Origin: Candidatus Brocadia sp. WS118
Lineage (GTDB): Bacteria; Planctomycetota; Brocadiia; Brocadiales; Brocadiaceae
Length of the DNA: 39,723 nucleotides
Assembly: GCA_007618135.1 (NCBI GenBank)
Contig: PHFX01000166.1
Location: 1 to 39,723, forward strand
Direction of reading: 5' to 3'
Below, in pieces: positions 32,975 to 38,094 of the stretch. Positions within the stretch are counted from its first letter, which is position 1, and each line of letters opens with the position of its first letter. The notes beneath the pieces were generated by a model that had not been told where the DNA came from, did not search any database, and saw only the letters and a list, made by a program, of their open reading frames with translations. Both the position numbers and the translations under genes were made by a program.

Positions 32975-33463
32975 ATGGGTTTATTCCGGAAAGGCGCGGA
33001 AGAGACAAAAATAAATGATGAAACGAAAGGTACGTTTGAAATAAAAAGTGAACTCAGAAAGGAGAGTAAAATGGCTGAAGAAAAGGCATCGACACTGACG
33101 CAGGACGTTGAAATAAAAGGCACAATCAAGTTTAGCAATGCCATGAAAATCGATGGAAAGTTTGAAGGGGAAATGTTAACGGAAGAGGGAGAATTATTTG
33201 TTGGTAAAACGGGGAGCGTTAAAGCAAACGTTAAGGTGAAAAATGCCGTTATTGAAGGTCGTATGGATGGAAATGTTACCGCAACAGAAAAAGTTGAGCT
33301 GAAGGAGAAGGCGCATCTTGTTGGCGATCTGAAGGCACGAACCCTGGTTATTGAGGAGGGGGTTGTTTTTGTCGGAAATTGCAATGTAAACCCTGATGGA
33401 TTCAAGACAGAAAATACCAATTTCAAGGAATGGAAAAAGGAAACAAAAAAGGGGCCGGAATAA
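32975..33463 (+). CDS. Bactofilin
   Basis: Bactofilins are small beta-helical proteins that polymerise without nucleotides into cytoskeletal filaments at the inner membrane. Residues about 38-140 carry the domain: STLTQDVEIKGTIKFSNAMK, then IDGKFEGEM, VKVKNAVIEGRMDGNVTATE and VGDLKARTLVIEEGVVFVGN. The N-terminal 37 residues and C-terminal 20 (KEWKKETKKGPE) are charged and probably unstructured, as usual. It has 162 residues. The start ATG 32975 follows a GAAAGG site. A second, zinc-ribbon bactofilin gene follows after 44 bases, probably in the same transcript. Confidence 0.92.
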   Translation: MGLFRKGAEETKINDETKGTFEIKSELRKESKMAEEKASTLTQDVEIKGTIKFSNAMKIDGKFEGEMLTEEGELFVGKTGSVKANVKVKNAVIEGRMDGNVTATEKVELKEKAHLVGDLKARTLVIEEGVVFVGNCNVNPDGFKTENTNFKEWKKETKKGPE

Positions 33464-33507
33464 TTTTGCCGTGAGGAATAAGCAATTTATCATGACAGAA
33501 TCGATTT

Positions 33508-34062
33508 ATGAATTCTAAAGCGGGCGAATTGCCGGAAACGAGAGATATTGTATGTCCTTATTGTCATCGGAATTTTCCGGTTTCGATTCGTTGCATCTCA
33601 ATACCATGCCGTTATTGTAATCGTCATATCAATATTCAGGAAGTGCTTTTTCCACCTGAAAAACGGGAAAAACCTTCTCGTGGAGACAGAAGGATTCTTT
33701 GTTATAAGTGTGGAAAAGAAATCTACACCCACGCAAAGGCTCAGGCAATACGATGTAATTACTGTTATCATCAGAATGATATGAATGATTACAAGATAAA
33801 AGCCCTGTTGGGGAAAATTATTGAGACCCACGGCACCTTATACCTGAAAAAGAAAGGGGTCATAGAAATCTCAAACATACGGGTGGGGAACGCTATTATA
33901 CAGGGGAAAATTCATGGAGACCTTTATGCAAGTGGTACGGTTGAAATCCTGAAGCCTGGCGAAATTTACGGTAAAATCACCTGCCGTAAATTAATCATAA
34001 AAAAAGGCGGCACATTCAGCGGAAGGGTGCAGATATTACCAGGAAACCGGGAATTTTCGTAA
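33508..34062 (+). CDS. Double zinc ribbon fused to a bactofilin domain
   Basis: This 184-residue protein has two four-Cys zinc ribbons: CPYCHRNFPVSIRCISIPCR with YC (about 17-37), and CYKCGKE with RCNYCYHQ (about 65-85). From about 98 onward it is bactofilin-like: GTLYLKKKGVIEISNIRVGN, AIIQGKIHGDLYASGTVEIL, then CRKLIIKKGGTFSGRVQI. The zinc ribbons probably add protein or nucleic-acid contacts to a filament. It lies 44 bases after the plain bactofilin gene and may co-polymerise with it. Confidence 0.88.
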   Translation: MNSKAGELPETRDIVCPYCHRNFPVSIRCISIPCRYCNRHINIQEVLFPPEKREKPSRGDRRILCYKCGKEIYTHAKAQAIRCNYCYHQNDMNDYKIKALLGKIIETHGTLYLKKKGVIEISNIRVGNAIIQGKIHGDLYASGTVEILKPGEIYGKITCRKLIIKKGGTFSGRVQILPGNREFS

Positions 34063-34437: not shown

Positions 34438-35079
34438 ATGAAAAAATTTACCATTATTCATGTTATCCTTTTGCTCAGCCTCTCCGCAGCAATACAAAGC
34501 AGCGCTCACGGATACGGATATGCCAAAGAGGAAGATCCCCTCATTAAGATATTTAAGGCTGTTATCTTTTATGGAAGACAGACCAACTGGGAAAAGGTCT
34601 CCCGTGAAATCGCCACAATCAGCGATCGCATTGCGGATGTTCACGCAATATTCAAAATAGACCTCAGGCCAGAGATTGATCATGCCATTCAGAAACAGGA
34701 TTTCCAGTCCCTGACAAAGCACATGGCAAACCTCATCTTTTTTGCCATTCGGGAAAAATTTTATTATAATCTCCAGGAAAACCTGACAATTTTTACCCGT
34801 TCTAAAGTCAGATTGGGATTGGCAGAAGAATATTATCTCACCCTCCTTGCAGGAAACGTGAGAAATTACGATGTCCGGCACAAGACCAGATTACATGAAG
34901 ATATTTACCACCGGTTCGTCAAAGCCAGAGGAACCCTTGGCAGTATAGGTTTTTTTGGCGCCGGTGCAATGCAACCTGACGTAAAGGAATTTGAGATATT
35001 AACAAAAGAAATTGAAAAATTGCTCTTCAGGGCATTTCCCTATTTTATAACCGGCAAGGATACACACAATAATCAATGA
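34438..35079 (+). CDS. Exported helical protein of unknown function
   Basis: This 213-residue protein has a clear signal peptide (MKKFTIIHVILLLSLSAAIQ, then SSAHG, with likely cleavage near residue 23-25). The mature part is helical: DPLIKIFKAVIFYGRQTNWE, VSREIATISDRIADVH and TKHMANLIFFAIREKFYYNL. There are no Cys motifs or metal sites. I do not recognise the family. It lies 15 bases before the porin gene, so the two are probably one operon and this protein may work in the periplasm with the porin. Confidence 0.8.
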   Translation: MKKFTIIHVILLLSLSAAIQSSAHGYGYAKEEDPLIKIFKAVIFYGRQTNWEKVSREIATISDRIADVHAIFKIDLRPEIDHAIQKQDFQSLTKHMANLIFFAIREKFYYNLQENLTIFTRSKVRLGLAEEYYLTLLAGNVRNYDVRHKTRLHEDIYHRFVKARGTLGSIGFFGAGAMQPDVKEFEILTKEIEKLLFRAFPYFITGKDTHNNQ

Positions 35080-36549: not shown

Positions 36550-38094
36550 ATGAAAAGCTTCCATAAAATTTTTCACCCTGAAAAATTCAATTTACTTCTT
36601 TACTATACCTTAACCAGTTTTGTCGCTATCGCCGCAATGAGCCTCATGGTAGGATGGATTTTCCCACGTATGGAAAGCAAAGAACTGATCAGCCGGAGCG
36701 AGAAATACGCACAACGGTTCATCTCACACCTGAATTATGAAATCTATAAGGATTTTTTGCTTCCTACCCTGAAACGTGATAAACAAATAGATTTGGAAAA
36801 TAATAAAACTCAATTGAGAAAACTGGATCACGTGATCCGGGAAAATTTGTATGGTCTGCATATAAAAAAACTCTACCTCTACGATTTCGAAGGACATATC
36901 ATTTACAGCACCATTCCCGAACACATTGGTTTTACCTTGGACCGAGGGATGAATAAAAATCTGGACTCTGCCATCAACGGTAAACCGGCATCGGTATTAC
37001 GATTAGCGGGGACTACCGACTCGAAAGGGATCGATGTCGTGGAAACCTTGCTCGAGAGCTACTATCCATTCTATGACATGGAAAAGGATGGCGGGGAAAA
37101 AACCCAAATTGGCGTCCTGGAGATATACCAGGACATGTCTGATTTGAAGAGACAGATCACAAAGGCCCGGGAAAAAGCAATTGTCATGACCGGCTCGGCA
37201 ATGGGAATTTTATTTTTAGCGCTTTTCCTTATCGTCTTCAAGGCAGCGCGGATCATCGATACAAAGACACACCAGCTCATAGATTCGAAAAATAGCCTCG
37301 AGCAGAAGGTTGAGGAGCGCACATCTGAAATTCGTGAGGCTTATAAAGAATTACAGCTTACCCAGCGCAAACTCATCCAGAACGAAAAACTGGCAAGCAT
37401 CGGAACCCTGACTGCCGGACTGGCTCATGAGATTAATAATCCCCTGGCTTCTATTGCCAGTTGTGCAGAAGGTCTCATTGAGCGGCTTAAGACTGCCCTG
37501 GGTCATAAAGAACAAAGAAACCCCGCAGAGAAAGCGGATTTAGAGGTATTTCCTGAATATCTGAAAATCATTTGTGATGAAACCTACCGATGTAAAACTA
37601 TTATATCAAATCTGCTCAACTTCGCCAGACACTCGGCGCCTAAATTTGAAAGAATTGATATCAACCAGATTATCCATGGCACGCTCTCGGTTGGACAATA
37701 CCAGCAAAAAGACCGGAAGATACAACTTCACCTTTCCCGTGAAGCCTGCGAAGTAATCGGAGACCCACAGCAGCTTAAGCAGGTCTTTCTCAATTTACTC
37801 ATTAATTCATTCCATGCAACCGAGGAAAGCGGTGGTGACATTCTTATCTCTACCATCAAAAAACAAACGGTGGTACAAATTATCTTTAAAGACTCTGGTA
37901 TCGGGATTAAACGAGAGCATCTGGATAAAATATTTGATCCGTTCTTTACCACAAAATCAACAGGAAAAGGCACGGGACTTGGACTTGCCATATGCTACGG
38001 TATCATCGATGTCCATAATGGGAGGATAGAGGCGTTCAGTGAAGGCCCCGGTACCGGTGCAACTTTTACCGTTTCACTGCCAAAGGCAACATGA
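36550..38094 (+). CDS. Membrane sensor histidine kinase, NtrB-like
   Basis: This 514-residue kinase has a membrane segment at about 15-38, an extracytoplasmic sensor region (about 40-210), and a second segment (about 214-235, GSAMGILFLALFLIVFKAAR). A coiled coil (NSLEQKVEERTSEIREAYKE) leads to the HisKA domain with the phosphorylated H293 in LAHEINNPLASI. The HATPase domain has N box LNLLINSFHATEE, G1 FKDSGIGI, F box FDPFFTTK and G2 GKGTGLGLAI. It lies 49 bases before a sigma-54 activator, its probable partner. The signal is unknown. Confidence 0.95.
   Translation: MKSFHKIFHPEKFNLLLYYTLTSFVAIAAMSLMVGWIFPRMESKELISRSEKYAQRFISHLNYEIYKDFLLPTLKRDKQIDLENNKTQLRKLDHVIRENLYGLHIKKLYLYDFEGHIIYSTIPEHIGFTLDRGMNKNLDSAINGKPASVLRLAGTTDSKGIDVVETLLESYYPFYDMEKDGGEKTQIGVLEIYQDMSDLKRQITKAREKAIVMTGSAMGILFLALFLIVFKAARIIDTKTHQLIDSKNSLEQKVEERTSEIREAYKELQLTQRKLIQNEKLASIGTLTAGLAHEINNPLASIASCAEGLIERLKTALGHKEQRNPAEKADLEVFPEYLKIICDETYRCKTIISNLLNFARHSAPKFERIDINQIIHGTLSVGQYQQKDRKIQLHLSREACEVIGDPQQLKQVFLNLLINSFHATEESGGDILISTIKKQTVVQIIFKDSGIGIKREHLDKIFDPFFTTKSTGKGTGLGLAICYGIIDVHNGRIEAFSEGPGTGATFTVSLPKAT

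Follow-up and report, generated by a model that had tools for sequence, protein, structure and literature searches.

A Truncated Zinc-ribbon Bactofilin Encoded beside a Plain Bactofilin in Planctomycetota, with a Double Ribbon in Brocadiales

RESULTS

Two Adjacent Bactofilin Genes in Candidatus Brocadia sp. WS118

The window, which is the whole 39,723-nucleotide stretch of Candidatus Brocadia sp. WS118 DNA that was analyzed, contains two neighboring bactofilin genes, the features of which are collected in Table 1. An earlier note on this DNA had described two four-cysteine ribbons that precede a bactofilin domain and a normal bactofilin gene next to them. Both observations were confirmed. The ribbon protein carries two CxxC-x14-CxxC motifs followed by a match to PF04519 at residues 102–174 (55.3 bits against a cut-off of 27.9), and the product of the gene ahead of it matched the same family with 95.6 bits. 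The match in the ribbon protein covers model positions 27–97 of 98, the first 26 being absent, and that in the plain neighbor covers positions 2–97. Inspection of the 44-bp gap between the two genes revealed no terminator-like site on the + strand. A search of the organism's own genome (96% complete) returned these two bactofilins only.

Table 1. Features of the bactofilin gene pair in the window
Feature	Positions	Strand	Basis or remark
Double-zinc-ribbon bactofilin gene (184 aa, ATG start)	33508..34062	+	Coordinates and frame exact
Plain bactofilin gene (162 aa), conserved upstream partner	32975..33463	+	PF04519 and AlphaFold2 model
N terminus of plain bactofilin, MGLFRKG, like the membrane-targeting consensus MFSKKKK	32975..32995	+	By eye only
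Phe-132 of plain bactofilin, equivalent of TtBac Phe-105 and BacA Phe-130	33368..33370	+	Alignment to 6ria and 2n3d
Intergenic gap, 44 bp	33464..33507	+	Between plain and ribbon genes
Ribbon 1, C16-x2-C19-x14-C34-x2-C37, plus extra invariant C29	33553..33618	+	Alignment and model
Ribbon 2, C65-x2-C68-x14-C83-x2-C86; placed as the single ribbon is in other planctomycetes	33700..33765	+	
N-terminally shortened bactofilin β-helix, about residues 102–178, PF04519 positions 27–97	33811..34041	+	
Phe-170 of ribbon protein, equivalent of the polymerization-interface Phe	34015..34017	+	Alignment column

The membrane-targeting consensus of bactofilins is given as MFSKKKK (PMC12448750). Compared with it by eye, the start of the ribbon protein (MNSKAGELP) has no hydrophobic residue at position 2; the consensus is also absent from several Scalindua plain partners, as their starts were called here.

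No Pfam zinc-ribbon model matched the window protein at its own cut-off, the best scores being 17.6 bits for zf_UBZ (cut-off 25.6) and 17.3 bits for Zn_ribbon_19 (cut-off 30.8). The ribbons share their CxxC...CxxC pattern with the DmmA-like_C, Rpb12/Rpo12, and eS27 families. In alignment A3, PF04519 matched all 17 members at E 0.1 or better and DmmA-like_C matched 10 of 17 at the same threshold (best 1e-4), although DmmA-like_C stayed below its cut-off wherever a score was available (for the one-ribbon protein L064, 20.7 bits with a cut-off of 27.4) and matches to the other ribbon families were insignificant.

Two other regions of the window were observed downstream of the pair. Positions 34438–35079 encode a 213-amino acid protein with a signal-like N terminus that adjoins a Porin_O_P-type gene; neither Pfam nor NCBIfam gave a match at E 1, and a relative occupies the corresponding place in one other locus (L005, genome G002). 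Two genes 2.5–4 kb downstream of the pair were assigned by eye, one as histidine-kinase-like (36550–38094) and one as NtrC-like (starting near 38030).

Conservation of the Ribbon Cysteines

All eight ribbon cysteines, together with Cys-29 and Cys-159, were invariant in the 13 aligned Brocadiales sequences, the window included. The ribbon gene is under purifying selection, with dN of 0.03–0.31 and dS of 0.77–2.27 over the whole ORF in six comparisons, dS values above 1 being rough. In the two closest comparisons, dN was lower in the ribbon region than in the helix (0.020 versus 0.034 and 0.020 versus 0.045), and the reverse was seen in two more distant ones (0.165 for the ribbon versus 0.087 for the helix, and 0.173 versus 0.108). 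Chance clusters of cysteines were considered and are ruled out by the conservation and the dN/dS comparisons. The CxxC-x14-CxxC spacing was present in 66 of 66 readable ribbon loci; as the loci were found with ribbon-containing profiles, the presence and spacing of the cysteines are partly by construction, which does not apply to the neighboring gene.

That Cys-29 of ribbon 1 and Cys-159 of the helix are as invariant as the ribbon cysteines is what might be expected of a sensor, in which zinc or the redox state of the cysteines would switch an accessory subunit and thereby control filament assembly; a C29-like cysteine is also found in L017, a one-ribbon paralogue described below. The consensus of the single ribbons, however, contains no corresponding extra cysteine, and nothing else points to redox control. 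We regard a sensory role as very unlikely.

Predicted Structures of the Two Proteins

AlphaFold2 predicted both of the folds on which the earlier proposal depended, a ribbon fold and a β-helix, with ribbon 2 and the junction as the low-confidence parts of the model (pLDDT 45–63). The prediction, made from 16 sequences, was of moderate quality (mean pLDDT 71, pTM 0.47), and two of the five models were much worse (52 and 49). Ribbon 1 spans residues 11–42 (pLDDT 77–84; strands 11–15, 22–26, 31–33, and 40–42), ribbon 2 spans residues 60–91 (pLDDT 57–63; strands 60–64, 71–75, 80–82, and 89–91), and the β-helix comprises residues 104–176, with pLDDT of 57 at its start and 75–91 from residue 111. 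The best model of the plain partner had a mean pLDDT of 70, the other four being at 55 or below, and superposed on Thermus thermophilus TtBac (6rib, chain 12–112) with Z 18.2 and rmsd 1.4 over 100 residues.

When the model of the ribbon protein was compared with VIA-align, the two solved bactofilins ranked at the top: T. thermophilus 6rib with Z 12.6 and rmsd 2.0 over 88 residues and Caulobacter BacA (2n3d) with Z 11.1 and rmsd 2.4 over 89 residues, followed by an entry at Z 8.2. Foldseek gave no match to this model at E <0.001 (BacA 0.027, 6rib 1.4). The window protein is a bactofilin by fold and by sequence, albeit a truncated zinc-ribbon form rather than a standard one. It has the β-helix and the interface Phe position in common with BacA (2N3D) and TtBac (6RIA/6RIB) but differs from them in having ribbons instead of the N-terminal windings and tail and in adjoining a complete bactofilin.

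With E of 0.006–0.03, TMEM55B and its tandem RING-like domains headed the Foldseek list. The cytosolic domain of this protein (8OQH, 9QM9) resembles the ribbons in placing two small zinc modules in tandem, but with an rmsd of about 14 at these E values and no bactofilin part, the likeness is one of arrangement and not of family.

These comparisons bear on the suggestion of the earlier note that the ribbons could recruit nucleic acids or other proteins; with a nucleic acid as ligand, they would link the bactofilin filament with RNA or with the nucleoid. A Myxococcus bactofilin system that organizes the ParABS chromosome segregation machinery (PMC5703909) offers some precedent for such a role. 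The net charge is +8 over residues 1–100 of the window protein and −1 to +4 in the single ribbons. The β-helix, however, has the same charge (+8), and 13 of the 50 single ribbons carry no net positive charge. Matches to the Rpb12/Rpo12, eS27, and eL43 ribbons were insignificant (E 0.02 and above). One of the TMEM55B structures contains a peptide from a partner protein, which runs counter to a nucleic acid ligand, although this resemblance is weak too. The nucleic acid part of the suggestion, which draws on a mild positive charge and on insignificant resemblances of the Rpb12/eS27 type, thus found little support, and we consider it improbable.

Distribution in Brocadiales

The whole double-ribbon protein was matched in 23 of 62 Brocadiales genomes, 16 of them read by sequence and 7 known by profile coverage only. 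In all 23, a search with PF04519 located a plain bactofilin beside the ribbon gene on the same contig and strand. PF04519 had any match at all in 27 of the 62 genomes and none in 35. Four of the 27 genomes with a match had no full ribbon gene: one contained a strong plain bactofilin alone (G396, 82% complete), one a ribbon-gene remnant (G035), and two weak PF04519 matches (30 bits in G001 and 26 bits in G407). The linker between the two ribbons was 27 residues long in 16 of 16 proteins. Genome G037 contains a second, one-ribbon bactofilin paralogue (L017/L140), in the locus of which there is no plain bactofilin.

Several further Brocadiales loci were noted individually. The match in G001 (L184, from position 914 onward) belongs to a 568-amino acid protein which, by eye, has a pilin-like N terminus and Ser/Gly-rich repeats, and that in G009 is similar. 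The ribbon-gene remnant in G035 (L016, about 1250–1414) is interrupted by an in-frame stop and lies near a groEL-like gene; the intact pair in G026 (L014) likewise lies near a groEL-like gene. The plain partner in G004 (L010, L037) is frameshifted next to an intact ribbon gene, through either a sequencing error or pseudogene formation. A second bactofilin paralogue in G408 (C99:58779–59138) is known from profile matches only.

Distribution in Planctomycetota and Beyond

The survey of this domain architecture that the earlier note had proposed was run within Planctomycetota on 392 evenly drawn genomes, using two profiles and scoring the 8 or 9 best candidates in each genome; matches spanning ribbon and helix were read among the matches listed, and the prevalence is a lower bound. 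The pair recurs in the phylum, with one ribbon outside Brocadiales and two inside. Among the matches listed, there were at least 67 loci, comprising 16 double-ribbon loci (all in Brocadiales), 50 one-ribbon loci (49 outside Brocadiales, and L017), and one locus outside Brocadiales in which the ribbon is masked by N (L127). Those outside Brocadiales amount to at least 50 loci (one ribbon masked) in at least 49 genomes and at least 14 families. The double ribbon is a feature of Brocadiales (anammox) and occurs in two families of the order; together with the one-ribbon forms, at least 16 families of the phylum are represented. In 66 of the 67 loci read, including 50 of 50 outside Brocadiales, the gene directly upstream, with the same orientation, encodes a plain bactofilin; the exception is L017. 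The conservation of the architecture and of the pairing indicates that both are of consequence.

A scan of genome contigs returned 17 loci, 16 of which were in records of anammox or other Planctomycetota and one in an "uncultured bacterium". Plasmids gave one weak match, in Paenibacillus and to the helix only, and none with the one-ribbon query L064; phages gave no match with L066, and viral contigs gave none with the window protein. Verrucomicrobia may also have bactofilins with N-terminal Cys ribbons, in which case the architecture would extend beyond one phylum.

Double-ribbon matches in G060, G122, and G281 were rejected, as by eye they are membrane-protein-like and have no recognizable bactofilin part. 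The proteins encoded at L181, L182, and L183 carry two ribbons at the N terminus and a hydrophobic segment at the C terminus, with no recognizable bactofilin part.

Clustering of ORFs of at least 80 amino acids from 56 loci identified no third gene conserved beside the pair, although many of the genomes are GC-rich with long spurious ORFs and a small conserved neighbor could escape this procedure. A cluster of neighbors from 33 loci was discarded, its members being read as antisense frames of bactofilin genes. Some neighbors were limited to particular lineages (names by eye): an NtrC-type regulator adjoins the pair in L142, L143, L144, and L152, and groES, groEL, and dnaJ were each near the pair in six anammox loci. 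The four loci with the regulator come from four genomes of one planctomycete family. Elsewhere, bactofilin genes are often found beside M23 peptidases (PMC10945521).

Origin of the Pair and of the Second Ribbon

In a tree of 70 bactofilin columns from which the ribbon was left out, one change separated 65 ribbon rows from 64 plain rows. The branch between the two forms was weakly supported (SH-aLRT 71, with long-branch warnings), and none of 500 shuffles was as clustered. Pairwise distances of the partners were correlated (r 0.68 for 62 pairs, and r 0.69 for 49 pairs outside Brocadiales, with none of 1000 shuffles as high in either case), although such a correlation would also arise from shared species history. 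The simplest reading of these sequence comparisons is that one ancient duplication may have given rise to both forms, which would then have been inherited as a pair.

Because a single-ribbon model scored both Brocadiales ribbons (medians 32 and 28 bits) above the scores that the ribbons' own models gave each other (8 and 4 bits), the data fit a putative tandem duplication of the ribbon within Brocadiales, followed by divergence. The ribbon of L017 resembles ribbon 1 (50 bits) and not ribbon 2 (9.5 bits).

Ribbons in Place of the N-terminal Windings

The distance from the last ribbon cysteine to the conserved glycine of the helix core was 23–25 residues in 63 of 66 loci, as read from profile alignments. 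The first PF04519 position matched was 18–28 in the 23 Brocadiales ribbon copies versus 1–3 in the adjacent plain copies. Because the PF04519 match of the window protein starts at position 27 and the ribbon-to-core spacing is nearly constant, the ribbons are considered to replace the N-terminal tail and the first windings, there being no room in 23–25 residues for the missing windings or for a long flexible tether. The placement of ribbons ahead of a bactofilin that the earlier note had described therefore stood as an architecture but not as a mere addition to a complete domain. That the ribbon forms a rigid cap is a reading that rests mainly on the spacing, since ribbon 2 and the junction are weakly modeled.

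The same spacing is consistent with ribbons that are purely structural, each protein being an otherwise ordinary (co)polymerizing bactofilin in which a zinc-stabilized N-cap closes the core of the β-helix and binds no ligand. VIA-align laid residues 78 onward of the model, a low-confidence part, on TtBac residues 12 onward, and the single ribbons vary except at the cysteines, a serine, and a few hydrophobic positions, as would suit such a cap. A second ribbon in Brocadiales, set apart by the 27-residue linker (16/16), cannot cap the helix, however, and its cysteines are equally invariant; the lower dN of the ribbon in the two closest comparisons also argues against a purely structural role, although this order is reversed in the two distant ones. 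On balance, such a role appears unlikely.

The C-terminal Polymerization Interface

In bactofilin filaments, N-to-N contacts alternate with C-to-C contacts (PMC12364344). Phe-130 of BacA belongs to the C-terminal polymerization interface, and the substitution F130R abolishes polymers (PMC12448750). The equivalent residue of the ribbon protein, Phe-170, was invariant in the 16 sequences of its alignment. The interface column contained Phe in all 16 plain partners from Brocadiales and in 15 of the 16 ribbon forms of the order, the remaining one being truncated. In the ribbon forms outside Brocadiales, this position was hydrophobic (Leu 20, Ile 14, Val 9, Phe 6, Cys 1; n = 50), with an aromatic residue absent in 44 of 50, and the plain partners had Phe 32, Trp 7, Leu 5, Ile 3, Cys 2, and Val 1 (n = 50). 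In Candidatus Brocadia carolinensis (L006, L035), the ribbon bactofilin stops at residue 170, at the interface position and before the end of the helix.

The ribbon forms outside Brocadiales have also evolved faster, with a median tree distance of 3.68 versus 1.81 for the plain forms. This, together with the loss of the aromatic residue, could mean that the contact was lost there. Taken further, the ribbon protein would be non-polymerizing and stand apart from bactofilin filaments, its short β-helix serving as a scaffold. Such independence is difficult to reconcile with a plain bactofilin beside the ribbon gene in 66 of 67 loci and with the joint presence of the two in Brocadiales, and it seems highly improbable.

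DISCUSSION

We propose that the gene pair specifies a bactofilin cytoskeleton of two parts, a plain filament protein and an accessory ribbon subunit for docking or end-capping, a proposal to which we give an even chance. The plain protein, with its MGLFRKG tail, full-length β-helix, and interface phenylalanine, would make the filament, probably at the membrane, and the accessory subunit would be the ribbon protein, in which a zinc ribbon, presumably metal-binding, is fused closely to a shortened helix that keeps its C-terminal face. Because filaments alternate N-to-N and C-to-C contacts, the ribbon subunit would be expected to use its C-terminal face to join a plain subunit, and its ribbons would then sit at the site of the next N-to-N contact. 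So placed, it would end or mark the filament and provide a site at which a client could dock; as client, a protein is weakly favored over DNA or another nucleic acid. Recruitment of clients to the filament by the ribbon form, as envisaged in the earlier note, is plausible mainly in the event that this form and the plain bactofilin co-assemble.

The nearest precedent seen for an accessory bactofilin subunit may be BacC of Rhodomicrobium vannielii, by analogy. BacC is a hybrid bactofilin with a cadherin-like domain that does not have the conserved phenylalanine; it requires BacA for a filamentous localization, is dispersed when BacA is missing, and was suggested to co-polymerize (PMC10259793). 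It is like the ribbon protein in being an additional paralogue with an extra domain, in a genome that also encodes BacA, and it shares the loss of the phenylalanine with most one-ribbon forms. The extra domain itself is different, no ribbon being reported for BacC in that paper, which also states that no gene seemed to be co-transcribed with the R. vannielii bactofilin genes (PMC10259793). The cooperating bactofilins BacNOP of Myxococcus xanthus are likewise several bactofilins in one cell, and the available account of them makes no mention of a ribbon.

Among the open-licence papers searched, no description of a zinc-ribbon bactofilin family was found, and the cytoskeleton of Planctomycetota was hardly touched upon.

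To our knowledge, how bactofilin filaments end, gain polarity, or choose their clients is largely open. As a speculation that we hold only tentatively, a ribbon-capped subunit might plug one end of filaments that are otherwise non-polar, which would then have polarity or a defined end along with a docking site dependent on zinc. In anammox bacteria, the second ribbon might connect the filament with a client peculiar to the lineage, for example the division machinery or the anammoxosome. For the family as a whole, a bactofilin match in Planctomycetota can be a distinct, truncated zinc-ribbon form, and a putative accessory subunit encoded beside the filament protein in at least 16 families of one phylum provides a concrete, testable component.
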